Part shown: positions 27,047-58,336 of the stretch, one piece after another
Numbering within the stretch: the first letter of the stretch is position 1
How the letters are laid out: every line of letters begins with the position of its first letter
Origin: an uncultured Pelagibacteraceae bacterium
Lineage (GTDB): Bacteria; Pseudomonadota; Alphaproteobacteria; Pelagibacterales; Pelagibacteraceae
Length of the DNA: 64,000 bases
Reading direction: 5' to 3'
NCBI GenBank assembly: GCA_902615715.1
Contig: CACMQA010000002.1
Span: 1-64,000, forward strand
Position numbers and translations under genes: made by a program
Notes under the pieces: model-generated
The model's database searches: none
Told to the model about the DNA's origin: nothing
What the model saw: the letters and a program-made list of their open reading frames with translations, nothing else

Positions 27047-31609
<4,563 letters not shown>

Positions 31610-52856: not shown

Positions 52857-54722
52857 TTATTTTTCTAAGAAACTTTTTAGTTGTTTCGATCTACTAGGAT
52901 GTTTGAGTTTTCGAAGGGCTTTTGCTTCTATTTGTCTAATTCTTTCTCTTGTAACGGAAAATTGTAAACCTACTTCTTCTAAAGTGTGATCAGTGTTCAT
53001 TCCTATACCGAAACGCATTCTCAAAACTCTTTCTTCTCTCGGAGTAAGTGATGCTAAAATTTTTGTAGTTGACTCACTTAAATTTGATTGAATAGCTGTA
53101 TCAAGTGGTTGAAGTGCATTTTTGTCTTCTATAAAATCACCTAAACTACTATCTTCTTCATCTCCGACTGGAGTTTCAAGTGATACTGGCTCTTTTGCAA
53201 TTTTAAGAACTTTTCTTACTTTCTCAAGTGGCATTGCTAATTTTTTTGCTAATTCCTCTGGTGTTGGTTCTCTTCCGAACTCACTCATTATTTGTCTTTG
53301 AGTTCTAACAATTTTATTTATTGTCTCAATCATGTGCACAGGTATTCTTATAGTTCTTGCTTGATCTGCAATTGATCTGGTAATGGCCTGTCTAATCCAC
53401 CAAGTTGCATATGTTGAAAATTTATAACCTCTTCGATATTCAAACTTGTCCACGGCCTTCATTAAACCAATATTTCCCTCTTGAATTAAATCTAAAAATT
53501 GAAGCCCTCTATTGGTATATTTTTTTGCTATTGATATTACTAGTCTCAAATTTGCTTCAACCATTTCTTTTTTAGCAATTCTTGACTCTCTTTCACCTTT
53601 TTGAATCCTGCTTACTAATTTTTTAAACTCCCCAACCGATAAACCAATTTTTTTACTAAATTCAACTAATCTATCTCTTATTTCAGTAAAATCTTTTTTA
53701 TACTTTTTAAAAAAAGCTTTCCACGCTGGATTTTCTTTTAAAAAAGATTCAAATTTTGGATTTATTTCATTTCCTAAATAATATTTTAAAAATTCCTCAC
53801 GGGAAATCTTATTATCCATCGCCAATCTTAAAAGCACTCCCTCTAATGAGACAATTTTTTTATTTTCCTTGTAGTGTGATTGAACTAATTCTTCAACTAC
53901 GTGTGGAGCTAATTGTAAATTTTTAAAATTATCAACTAATATTTCTTGTATCTTCTTAAAATTTTTGTTTTTAGATACCGATAATTCTTTTGAAGCTAAT
54001 AAGCATTCTAGTTTTTCAACTTGATATTTTTTAAGTTTTGAATAATTTTTATTTAAAGAATCCAAAATATTAATTATTTTAGGTTTTATTTCCTCTTCCA
54101 TTTTAGCAAGGGAAACATTAAACTCATCGTCTTCGGCATTTGTGTTAACATCTGTTTTTTCTGAATTATCAGTTTTTTCTTTCTCTTTCTTTTGATTATT
54201 TTTTTTATTTATTTTCAAATCATCATCTTCGTCTAAAGAGTCAAAATCCTCATAAGTTGAGTCAATATCAATTATATCTCTAACTAACATTTGTTGACTT
54301 TCGATTTGTTCTTTCCACTCGAATATTTTTTTTCCAATTATAGGACTTTGAGTTAATGCATTGATCATTACATCTTTTCCTGCCTCTATTCTTTTAGCTA
54401 TAGCGATTTCACCCTCTCTAGAAAGTAGTTCTACACCACCCATTTCTCTAAGATACATTCTGATTGGGTCATCACTTTTATCGGATGTTTTTTCCTCAGT
54501 CTGAGTTGTGGTTTCTTTCTTCTTATTAGATTGATATTGGGATTTTTTTTCGACAAGAGTTATTTTTTCATCAACAAGAATAATGAAAGTTTTCTCAATA
54601 TTTTCTTGGGTTCCGTTTCTTTTGCCTAAAGATTTTGCAAGTTCCTCGTAGGTGATAAAGCCCCTATGTTTTCCCTTATCAAGCAATCTTTCAAATGATT
54701 TTGTAATGAGTTTTTCAGCCAT
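52857..54722 (-). CDS. rpoD: primary sigma factor (sigma-70)
   Basis: The 621-residue housekeeping sigma factor directs RNA polymerase to -35/-10 promoters. N-terminal region 1.1-like helices are followed by [21 protein letters not shown] (region 1.2) and a long acidic non-conserved insert. Region 2 has [20 protein letters not shown] and [15 protein letters not shown]; region 3 follows; region 4 has [15 protein letters not shown] and [20 protein letters not shown]. It follows dnaG in the direction yqeY-dnaG-rpoD from 57021. Confidence 0.97.
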
Positions 54723-54775: not shown

Positions 54776-56563
54776 TTAATCCCTATTTAACTGACTTTTA
54801 AGCTTAATAAGTTCTGAATATGAACTTTCATCCAAATTATTAATTAATTTTTGTTCAAGGGATTCTATTTTTCTCAAATTATTTTCATTTCTATATTCTT
54901 GAATTAATTCGTTCAGAAGAGCTAAAATTTCATCCGTACTTTTATTTTTAGTGATAATTTGAATATTTGAATTTTCTTTTATTTGTTCAATAATTTTTTT
55001 GTAGTTTTCATTTATATCTGAACTTATGATCTCTTTATCTTTCCCCTCTGAAAGTGAATTTACCACTGTATTTTTTAAATCTTCATTTTTTTCAGATAGA
55101 AATTCTATTTGCGATAATTCCTCTAATTTTTTAGAAGCAATTTCTAAATCATTTAAAATAATAAACAATATTGAAAATTCTATAATTTGAATTTTGGAGA
55201 GATCTTTTTTTTTTTGATGCAAAATTTTTGTTTCTTTAAGAATTTGATATTCTTTTTTCTTTTTAAAAGGGTTGTATTTATAGTTTTGTCTAGAAGATTG
55301 AATTGGTGTAAGTTTTTTTATTTTTTCTAAAAAGTCTTCCAAAACATATTTTTTTAATGTTTCGTCTTGTATGGAATAGGATAATTTTTTTATTTCTTTT
55401 TCAAATTTTGAAATCTCATAAGGATTATTTTGATTTATTTTGCTTAGATGATAATTCCAAATAAATGTTTGAATAATCTCTTTATTTTTGAGTAAATTTA
55501 ATAATCCATCTTTACCATACTGTTTAATAAAATCATCAGGATCGCTTCCTTCAGGCATAATAGAAAAAAAAATCTTATTAGTTTCATTAATTAGTGGAAA
55601 CAGCTTTTCAGCAATCCTTAAGGCAGCCTTTTGCCCGCTTTCATCACCATCTAAACAAATAATCGGATTTGAAAAAAATTTCCAAATTAAATTTATTTGT
55701 CTTTCGGTAAGCGCAGTACCTGAGTTTGCAATTACATTTTTGATACCAGATGAATAAACACTCACAACATCCATGTACCCCTCTACAATTAATACTTCTT
55801 CTGTGGTCGATCTGGAGTCTTTTGCTTTGTCTAAATTGAAAATCATATTTCCCTTTTTGTAAAATTCAGTTTCTGGAGAGTTAATATATTTAGCAAATTT
55901 ACTTTCACGTATAATTCTACCCCCAAAAGCAATAGTGTCTCCTGATAAATTTTTTACCGGAAAAAGTATTCTAGAATTAAAACGATCAATAAATTTACCA
56001 GTCTTGTCATTTTTAAAATAAAGCCCTGTAAAACTTATTTCTTCTTCCGAATATTTTTTCAATAAATCTTCATAGAAATTATTTTTCCAAGGAACAAAGC
56101 CTAATTGAAACTCCTCTATAATATTTTTTTTTAATCCTCTTTTTAACAAATAATCCAATGACTCTTTATTGTCTGAGTCAAATAATTTTTGATTATAATA
56201 ATTTTGATAGTCCACAAATATGTTTTTATACGTTTGGTATCTTGCGTCCTTTTTTTTATCAAAATTTGAAAATCTAAACGGTTGCATTCCTGCTTCTGCC
56301 GCAAGAGTTTTAACAGCTTCGCCAAATCCAATAGATTTTGTTTTCATTAGAAAATCAAATATATTTCCATGTTCACCGCTACTGAAACAGTGGTAAAATT
56401 CCTTTTCATCATTAACCGTAAATGATGGGCTCTTCTCATTTTTAAATGGAGAAAGTCCAATAAATTCTTTTCCCCTTTTTTTTAATTGAACCGTTTTTCC
56501 TACTACCTGGGATACTTTTAATCTTAATTTTATTTCATCAAGATATTCTTTTGGATATTTCAT
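54776..56563 (-). CDS. dnaG: DNA primase with a degenerate zinc domain
   Basis: The 595-residue primase makes RNA primers for replication. The N-terminal CHC2-type fold is recognisable (GLSPFKNEKSPSFTVNDEK and FYHCFSSGEHGNIFDF), but the ligand positions are S38, K41, C59 and S62 where Cys, His, Cys, Cys are usual, so zinc cannot be bound in the ordinary way. The TOPRIM core is intact (VLIVEGYMDVVS and CLDGDESGQKAA). The C-terminal DnaB-binding domain is present but divergent and Lys/Glu-rich. Context dnaG-rpoD is standard. Confidence 0.94.
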   Translation of the reverse strand: MKYPKEYLDEIKLRLKVSQVVGKTVQLKKRGKEFIGLSPFKNEKSPSFTVNDEKEFYHCFSSGEHGNIFDFLMKTKSIGFGEAVKTLAAEAGMQPFRFSNFDKKKDARYQTYKNIFVDYQNYYNQKLFDSDNKESLDYLLKRGLKKNIIEEFQLGFVPWKNNFYEDLLKKYSEEEISFTGLYFKNDKTGKFIDRFNSRILFPVKNLSGDTIAFGGRIIRESKFAKYINSPETEFYKKGNMIFNLDKAKDSRSTTEEVLIVEGYMDVVSVYSSGIKNVIANSGTALTERQINLIWKFFSNPIICLDGDESGQKAALRIAEKLFPLINETNKIFFSIMPEGSDPDDFIKQYGKDGLLNLLKNKEIIQTFIWNYHLSKINQNNPYEISKFEKEIKKLSYSIQDETLKKYVLEDFLEKIKKLTPIQSSRQNYKYNPFKKKKEYQILKETKILHQKKKDLSKIQIIEFSILFIILNDLEIASKKLEELSQIEFLSEKNEDLKNTVVNSLSEGKDKEIISSDINENYKKIIEQIKENSNIQIITKNKSTDEILALLNELIQEYRNENNLRKIESLEQKLINNLDESSYSELIKLKSQLNRD

Positions 56564-56565
56564 TA

Positions 56566-57021
56566 CTAATTTAAAAGTTCTTTAATAATTTTACTTACTT
56601 TTGAAAAATCAAGCGTGTCTGCATATTTTGATTTTAGAACACCCATAACTTTACCCATATCTTTCATTGAAGATGCGCCAGCTGATTTAATTGCATCTTG
56701 GCAAATTTTTTTAGTTTCTTCTTCGCTTAATTGTTTAGGTAAAAAAGCGCTAATAACCTCGATCTCCTTTTTCTCATTTTCTAAAAGTTCGTTTCTTCCA
56801 GCTTTTTTATAAACTTCGCAGGACTCATTCCTCTGTTTAATCATTTTTTTTAAAATAGCTGTTATATCGCTGTTGGACATCTCCTTTTGATCTTTGGTTC
56901 GGATTGCTATTTCAGCGTCTTTTATGGCTGATACTACTAGCCTAAGAGTTGGATAAATGTTTTTGTCCTTTGCCTTGAGTGCTTCGTTAAGTTTTTGTTC
57001 AATTTGCTTTTTTAAAGACAT
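56566..57021 (-). CDS. GatB/YqeY-domain protein
   Basis: The 151-residue YqeY-like protein starts MSLKKQIEQKLNEALKAKDK and carries TLRLVVSAIKDAEIA and FLPKQLSEEE, typical of this family. YqeY proteins resemble the tail domain of GatB and may interact with tRNA, but their job is not known. ATG 57021 is preferred over the longer frame. It is divergent from carA and is followed by dnaG after 2 bases. Confidence 0.9.
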   Translation of the reverse strand: MSLKKQIEQKLNEALKAKDKNIYPTLRLVVSAIKDAEIAIRTKDQKEMSNSDITAILKKMIKQRNESCEVYKKAGRNELLENEKKEIEVISAFLPKQLSEEETKKICQDAIKSAGASSMKDMGKVMGVLKSKYADTLDFSKVSKIIKELLN

Positions 57022-57148
57022 GTTTAAAATTATTTTAATCACAATTCTTATCCAAAATAAAAAGAACTTTCTTGACGATTTTATTACTATTTCATATGTT
57101 GCGCAAAATCATGTTTATAAGTTTTTTACTTTAACTCATGAGTTGTAT
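57022..57148. other. divergent yqeY/carA promoter gap
   Basis: The gap is 127 bases long and contains no ATG suitable for carA. I see no classical pyrimidine attenuator hairpin or ArgR/PyrH-type operator. The carA frame is open through it from 56957, but that part has none of the family sequence and is antisense to yqeY at its start. Confidence 0.3.
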
Positions 57149-58336
57149 TTGAAACCTTTTATTCAAAATATAAACTCAATTAAAAATCTTAATAAGATCG
57201 ATTCCAACGCTATTTTAGTTCTACAAAACGGAAAATTTTTTAAAGGTATTGGTTTAGGTTATCCTGGTGAAGCTACTGGTGAAGTGTGTTTTAATACATC
57301 AATAACTGGTTATCAAGAAATAATTTCCGATCCATCTTATGCTGATCAAATTATAAATTTTACATTTCCTCACGTTGGTAATGTAGGCACTAATCAAGAG
57401 GATCATGAGTCCGATAAAATTTGGACTAAGGGAGTTATTATAAACTCTGAAATTACAAGTCCCTCAAACTACAGAGCGCTCAAGCACTTAGATGAGTGGT
57501 TAAAAAAAAATAAAATTGTAGGTATTACTGGAATCGACACAAGAAATCTCACAAATTTTATAAGAGATAAAGGAGCTCCCAAAGGAACCATATCCTACTC
57601 GAAGAAAAGTAAAATAAATATAAAAAAACTTCTTAGACAAACACAAAAATGGAGCGGCCTGAAAAATTCAGATTTAGCTCAAAAAGTCTCTACAAAAAAA
57701 AACTATACTTGGAGAGGTTTAAAAACATGGAACAAGGAAACAGGTTTCGTAAAAAATAATAAAAAAAAATTTCATGTTGTCACAATAGATTATGGAGTTA
57801 AAAAAAATATTTTAAGATATTTTTCAGACTTTAATTGTAGAGTTACAGTGGTTTCTTGCAAAACAATTGCAGCAGATATAATTAAATTAAAACCGAACGG
57901 GGTTTTTTTATCCAACGGACCAGGTGATCCAGCTGCCACAGGCAAATATGCGATACCTATAGTAAAAGAATTAATTAAAAAAAATTTACCCATATTTGGT
58001 ATCTGTCTTGGTCATCAAATTCTTGCTTTAGCTTTAGGTGCAAAAACAAAAAAAATGAACTTGGGACATAGAGGTGCAAATCATCCAGTAAAAAATTTAA
58101 TTAATGGGAAAGTAGAAATTACAAGTCAAAATCATGGGTTTGAAGTTGTAAAAAGTAGTTTAAAAAAAAATATACAAATTACTCATCAATCTCTTTTTGA
58201 TAACAGTGTTGAGGGAATAAAATTGAAAAAAAAACCTGTTTATTCTGTGCAGTATCACCCGGAGTCTAATCCTGGTCCACAAGATAGCGTTTATTTATTT
58301 AAAGAATTTATAGAAAGTATGAAAAAAAATGCCTAA
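57149..58336 (+). CDS. carA: carbamoyl-phosphate synthase small (glutaminase) subunit
   Basis: The product is about 395 residues if translation begins at TTG 57149, which has a GAG ribosome-site trace 6 bases upstream; no ATG is available in frame near the domain start. The N-terminal CPSase domain includes [19 protein letters not shown]. The class I glutaminase has the nucleophile in [14 protein letters not shown] and His/Glu in [12 protein letters not shown]. It releases ammonia from glutamine for CarB. It overlaps carB by 8 bases. The start is the least certain part. Confidence 0.93.

Follow-up and report, generated by a model that had tools for sequence, protein, structure and literature searches.

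Primases of the CHC2 DnaG family (PF01807; structures 1d0q and 2au3) have an N-terminal zinc ribbon with three Cys and one His as ligands. This family, its fold, and metal-free ribbons in other proteins are known. Ribosomal proteins, for example, have cysteine-free paralogs in which the zinc knuckles are replaced by non-ligand residues, and these zinc-free copies back up the zinc-bearing ones. Domains D8 and D9 of E. coli topoisomerase I keep the zinc-ribbon fold without its cysteines, as described in the excerpted text of PMC10969213, and the N-terminal domain of animal Twinkle, which is homologous to that of the primases, has an altered metal site (excerpts of PMC9653094 and PMC10557236), occupied in the fly protein by a 2Fe-2S cluster (PMC9653094, in part). 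For DnaG itself, the sections consulted of PMC5204125 describe the zinc ribbon as indispensable to primase function, which counts against a ribbon that works without metal, and link a His or Lys next to a zinc ligand of the Clostridium difficile primase to trinucleotide specificity and start-site choice. According to the portion consulted of PMC5429622, deletion of the domain from Bacillus subtilis DnaG abolishes stable template binding, and the domain alone does not bind. As far as the open-access literature was searched, no description of a zinc-less DnaG was found, and this form is apparently undescribed there.

The window, the whole 64,000-nucleotide stretch of DNA that was analyzed, carries such a gene on the minus strand at 54776-56563. 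This dnaG encodes a DNA primase of 595 aa whose translation reads MKYPKEYLDEIKLRLKVSQVVGKTVQLKKRGKEFIGLSPFKNEKSPSFTVNDEKEFYHCFSSGEHGNIF..., and profile search identified the product as a full-length DnaG (399.9 bits to TIGR01391, whose curated cut-off is 283.6) with PF01807, PF08275 and Toprim domains. The N-terminal zinc-ribbon-type domain (residues 1-96, 56276-56563, minus strand), in which three of the four zinc ligands are gone, matched PF01807 over residues 4-94 with 101.6 bits against a cut-off of 24.9, and its sequence and predicted fold were those of a CHC2 domain. It is followed by the DNAG_N region of the catalytic core, which is ordinary (residues 122-248, 55820-56200, minus strand; PF08275, 121.8 bits) and by a Toprim domain (residues 256-346, 55526-55798, minus strand; PF13155 and PF13662), in which both catalytic motifs are intact: EGYxD as EGYMD at E261 to D265, and DxD as DGD at D305 to D307. 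The source genome, 95% complete, yielded a single PF01807 protein. Genes recognized by eye as rpoD (52857-54722) and GatB/YqeY (56566-57042) adjoin dnaG, and since the same flanking order, with one extra gene, is found in Sphingomonas parapaucimobilis, this looks like a standard dnaG locus. An open reading frame at 56957-58336 on the plus strand, carA-like by eye, overlaps the GatB/YqeY frame, and its start is probably over-extended.

The best 80 named relatives of the protein were all from the Pelagibacteraceae, with 61-85% identity in the best segment and Candidatus Pelagibacter ubique HIMB058 among them, so the window belongs to SAR11. The N-domains of 39 SAR11 relatives were 88-97% identical to that of the window over 115 residues, compared with a whole-length identity of 71-83% for the same proteins. 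One dnaG among these 80, from AG-898-K13 (L102), has a frameshift within the N-domain, which is either real or an assembly error.

In place of the family ligands Cys, His, Cys and Cys, the window protein has S38 (codon TCT, 56450-56452), K41 (AAA, 56441-56443), C59 (TGT, 56387-56389) and S62 (AGC, 56378-56380), all on the minus strand, as are the positions that follow. C59 is the sole ligand retained. Two further positions switch together with the ligands, S61 (56381-56383) and E64 (56372-56374), and H58 (56390-56392), beside the third ligand, is retained. The initial annotation had given the four residues correctly, though the interval that it assigned to them, 56389-56463, was about 11 bases off, missing S62 and covering a single base of C59. 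It had also allowed for a sequencing error at these codons. All of the best 80 Pelagibacteraceae loci were zinc-less, however, 43 with the ligand set SKCS and 37 with SKCT, and a state common to 80 of 80 relatives is not an error; together with the open frame, this ruled out both a sequencing error and a pseudogene.

A structure of the N-domain, the prediction of which had been proposed as a check, was modeled with AlphaFold2 from 23 zinc-less sequences (the window and related loci) with no zinc-type row in the alignment. The model was a ribbon with a pLDDT of 88, in agreement with the original claim that the domain has been kept without its metal ligands. Foldseek superimposed it on 1d0q at 1.0 Å with a TM-score of 0.84, and VIA-align returned 1d0q (Z 16.5 over 99 residues), 2au3 (Z 14.3), human Twinkle (Z 7.1) and the phage T4 primase (Z 6.7). 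The modeled zinc-less sequence is thus compatible with the ribbon fold, although the model does not imply stability without metal, nor does it prove the metal dispensable, because AlphaFold2 may give the family fold whatever the ligands.

To describe the difference between the two states, one row was taken per family and state, giving 22 zinc-less and 65 zinc-type rows, with named plasmid and phage records counted as their own families (2 of the 22 and 4 of the 65). Five columns separated the states, with divergences of 0.71-1.00, while the best of 322 catalytic columns reached 0.42. Position 38 was Ser in 22 of 22 zinc-less rows and Cys in 65 of 65 zinc-type rows. Since His occupied position 41 in all 65 zinc-type rows and the divergence there was 1.00, it was absent from all 22 zinc-less rows, which had Asn, Lys, Thr, Gln, Ser and others instead. 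Position 61 was Gly in 64 zinc-type rows and Ala in one, and Ser in 21 zinc-less rows and Ala in one; position 62 changed from Cys to Ser (16 rows) or Thr (6 rows). Position 64, mostly Ala in the zinc type (50 of 65, with Glu or Lys in 10), was Lys or Glu in 20 of 22 zinc-less rows. The ligand switch is stereotyped, and in the class it is all-or-none; its set comprises S38, a residue other than His at 41, Cys or Asp at 59, S61, Ser or Thr at 62, and mostly Lys or Glu at 64. Compared with CHC2 DnaG, the zinc-less form shares the family, the domain order, the predicted fold, the conserved residues and the catalytic motifs, and differs in having other residues at three or all four ligand positions, at position 61 and mostly at 64. 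P39, F40, E43, K44, P46, S47, F48, K54, F60, G63, G66 and others were the same in both states, and H58 was found in 21 of 22 zinc-less and 57 of 65 zinc-type rows. The residues around the site are thus typical, as first described, and the further statement that template recognition must work differently is unsupported, the conserved surroundings being the same in both states.

The N-domain was matched in 229 of 240 Alphaproteobacteria genomes. Thirty-three of the 240 were zinc-less, 194 were zinc-type, two could not be assigned (G099 and G137) and 11 had no dnaG match. Direct reading supports 95 of the 194 zinc-type calls, and the other 99 come from a DNA pattern for Cys-Pro-Phe-His alone, its place within dnaG being assumed. 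This pattern matched 193 of the 240 genomes and its reverse matched two; the exceptions were G098, where the match lay away from a zinc-less dnaG, and G107 and G212, which were missed though CHCC. With 33 zinc-less genomes among 227 that were settled, the guess that related alphaproteobacterial primases share the substitutions proved right. Their wide presence had been expected to make them a known variant; the spread in ordinary Alphaproteobacteria was found, and a published variant was not, as far as the open-access papers were searched. The individual ligand residues were read in 144 genomes of the class, of which 47 were zinc-less and 97 CHCC, with no partial ligand set among the 144; the share of 47 is not a frequency, as the set was enriched for zinc-less genomes by query and by choice. 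The zinc-less state occurred in 22 of the 97 family codes read. It was also present in genomes of 3-8 Mb and in Methylobacterium (M. bullatum, SNCS), and the Tistrella, Pseudorhodobacter, Sphingomonas and Sinorhizobium proteins were CHCC.

A sample of 200 genomes from the phylum contained 51 of the class, 20 zinc-less and 31 zinc-type. The other 149 genomes included 140 with a dnaG match, and 131 of these have the zinc motif (six were read, all CHCC; the reversed pattern matched three of the 200). Three of the remaining dnaG genes read CHCC, one read CNCC (G401) and five were unsettled (G242, G264, G374, G387 and G408), so that no zinc-less dnaG is known outside the class among these 140 genomes, the five unsettled ones included in that number. 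The CNCC domain (L326) was the only clear partial ligand set seen. Another genome outside the class, G348, had eight DnaG N-domain matches and eight zinc-motif matches, which points to several primase-like genes, possibly mobile.

Phages also carry the zinc-less form. The primase of Caulobacter phage Sansa is STCS, and 12 of the best 80 of 528 viral relatives of a zinc-less query were zinc-less; L336 among them is apparently Sansa. Of the phages with Bacteroidota hosts, three named ones had the zinc-less form: Cellulophaga phage Ingeline_1 (SVCS) and two Flavobacterium phages, laban6-1 (SVDS) and FPSV-D35 (STDS). CHCC was read in two gut phages, two Porphyromonas phages, a Prevotella replicon and a Parabacteroides plasmid. 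Six zinc-less DnaG-type primases of Cellulophaga and Flavobacterium phages and similar viral contigs (L404, L405, L407, L409, L411 and L412) occur beside CHCC relatives. The viral row L385 was scored CHCA, which by eye reflects a one-residue insertion. Forms with none of the four ligands were found in families f64, f71, f146 and f154, as STDS, SGDS, SNDS, SQDS, SADS and STDA (rows L172, L178, L201, L202, L300, L304 and L308). The third position is Asp in L172, L178, L201, L202 and others, and because such zero-ligand forms exist, the lone Cys of the window protein, C59, is dispensable. Bradyrhizobium-type genomes presumably have the zero-ligand form, which would fit G267, G337 and G384 (7-8 Mb).

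We consider it probable (about 0.75) that the window encodes the replicative DnaG of a SAR11 bacterium with a metal-free, working version of the N-terminal zinc ribbon, a reading drawn from sequence comparison. The ribbon would bind no zinc, and its two knuckles would be held by side-chain hydrogen bonds and charge through Ser or Thr at 38, 61 and 62 and Lys or Glu at 64, with the hydrophobic core adding to the hold. The metal-free domain may still present the start site of the template for use by the catalytic domain, with priming as usual; if our own column matching is right, H58 would be the His/Lys specificity column of the C. difficile primase. With less confidence, the state may have arisen or spread several times in Alphaproteobacteria, through exchange of the N-terminal module or through repeated, compensated loss. 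Among the known ribbons, topoisomerase I D8/D9 is alike in being a nucleic-acid-handling ribbon whose fold was kept after cysteine loss, though D8 and D9, as far as the excerpt describes them, are extra repeats beside zinc-bearing ones, and here the ribbon is the sole such domain of the only DnaG found. The cysteine-free ribosomal proteins differ in that they back up zinc copies, no second PF01807 copy having been found in this 95% complete genome.

The domain could instead be a degenerate remnant, as in vertebrate Twinkle, with priming now independent of the site. Human Twinkle, whose primase function is not conserved according to the excerpt of PMC9653094, came third in the fold comparison after the two DnaG structures. 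Animal Twinkle, human and Drosophila, resembles the window protein in its homologous domain with an altered metal site, as far as the excerpts describe it, but it has lost primase activity, and the SAR11 primase is presumed active and needed. Its catalytic motifs are intact, unlike the diverged primase part of an inactive Twinkle-like module. The surroundings of the site are unchanged, the N-domain is more strongly conserved within SAR11 than the remaining protein, and a second PF01807 protein was not found in the 95% of the genome at hand, all of which makes a remnant unlikely. It is possible that a zinc-type primase of another family lies in the remaining 5%, or that an unrelated primase exists. 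Metal might also still be bound through other residues, H58, C59, E64 and H65. H58 and H65 did not vary among 17 aligned zinc-less primases, yet H65 is also common among zinc-type rows, and other zinc-less members are without these residues (FKDFSSGLGG in L201 of G183, FKCFSSGIGG in L348, FKCFSSGKGG in L409, WKDFSSGKGG in L411), so an alternative metal site is very unlikely.

SAR11 is an open-ocean group, and a lineage in zinc-poor water might strip zinc from its proteins generally. In accordance with this, the LigA zinc-finger profile had no match in three of three SAR11-family genomes searched. In the window LigA (28741-30774, minus strand), however, the finger missed by PF03119 has C-x-C for C-x2-C and keeps four cysteines, so that the PF03119 misses, 27 in the 240 class genomes, are at least partly misses of the profile and no loss is inferred from them. 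ClpX likewise keeps its four cysteines, and the zinc-less DnaG of the 3-8 Mb genomes and of Methylobacterium also speaks against zinc economy. It was rejected as a general cause on the zinc sites kept in LigA and ClpX of the window genome, and we regard it as very unlikely.

The distribution of the two states was compared with three sets of phylogenies. The catalytic-part tree (121 rows) required 15 changes of state by parsimony, at least five of them forced by strongly supported branches, and the RpoB tree (57 rows) required nine, again with at least five forced. With one row per family and state, these became 12 changes (at least three forced) and seven changes (at least four forced). A single clade of zinc-less rows was rejected both for the catalytic part (82 rows, 153 lnL, p-AU 0.00075) and for RpoB (47 rows, excluding G030 and G068; 230 lnL, p-AU 2.75e-5). 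It was not rejected by the N-domain, either without columns 38, 41, 59, 61 and 62 (82 rows, p-AU 0.551; free tree six changes) or without 24 site-related positions (p-AU 0.807). In a matched control on the five-column set, one clade of 21 zinc-type N-domain rows was rejected (157 lnL, p-AU 0.0009). The nearest neighbor of a zinc-less row was itself zinc-less for 16 of 21 rows in the N-domain (reached by 0 of 2000 shuffles). In the catalytic part this held for 7 of 21 rows, a number that 556 of 2000 shuffles reached. The 82-row catalytic, N-domain, control and nearest-neighbor tests excluded the long-branched L218, L028, L030, L003 and L025.

Two histories were weighed against these data. In one, a zinc-less N-domain of single origin was recombined into the dnaG of several lineages, perhaps by way of phages, with vertical descent for the catalytic part. 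The N-domain allows one zinc-less clade where the matched control, the catalytic part and RpoB reject theirs, a zinc-less row has a zinc-less nearest neighbor more often in the N-domain (16 of 21 rows) than in the catalytic part (7 of 21), and phages do carry zinc-less primases. In the other, zinc was lost repeatedly and independently, and selection favored the same compensating substitutions at each loss. Several changes of state are forced by strong branches on the RpoB and catalytic trees, S38 uses both serine codon sets (TCN and AGY) across families, which also speaks against exchange, and the Bacteroidota phages have the same set of S38, S61 and S62 though their other N-domain residues differ. 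Family f29 is mixed: zinc-less G028 and CHCC G159 are sisters in both the catalytic and the RpoB trees, and the N-domain of G028 is nearest to that of the zinc-type L188 (0.81), which looks like loss in place. The free N-domain tree without the 24 positions needs 13 changes of state, a further point against exchange; the tree held to one clade was 27 lnL higher on that set, however, so the free search was poor and few columns decide little. Against repeated loss, the clustering of the N-domains reaches 70 columns away from the site, and no intermediates were seen among the class genomes read. Repeated loss thus falls just short of an even chance and exchange of a single module somewhat further below it; the choice between exchange and repeated loss with co-adaptation is about even.

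Five zinc-type rows (L194, L196, L221, L222 and L223) have an insert in the N-domain near residues 28-35 (VTWDRRKTNVSRGDYWACCPFH in L196), and their catalytic parts fall among zinc-less lineages. Because insert-bearing CHCC rows, from Sinorhizobium, Pseudorhodobacter, G003, G022 and G057, are placed among zinc-less ones in the catalytic tree, zinc may have been regained in some lineages through replacement of the N-domain.

A broader idea is tentative, and on balance we doubt it: the metal-free ribbon might be a distinct primase module exchanged among the dnaG genes of Alphaproteobacteria and phages, and acquired in Bacteroidota phages independently or by transfer, that does the start-site job without metal, zinc being a replaceable staple of the fold and not part of template recognition. 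Zinc in the primase domain is thought to be essential, and the zinc-less natural forms are a ready-made test of its purpose. Primases with and without the metal site exist even inside one family (G028 and G159), making the role of zinc directly testable. The finding is also relevant to drug design aimed at the zinc domain of the primase, and to the way in which a domain essential for replication can swap its stabilizing chemistry.
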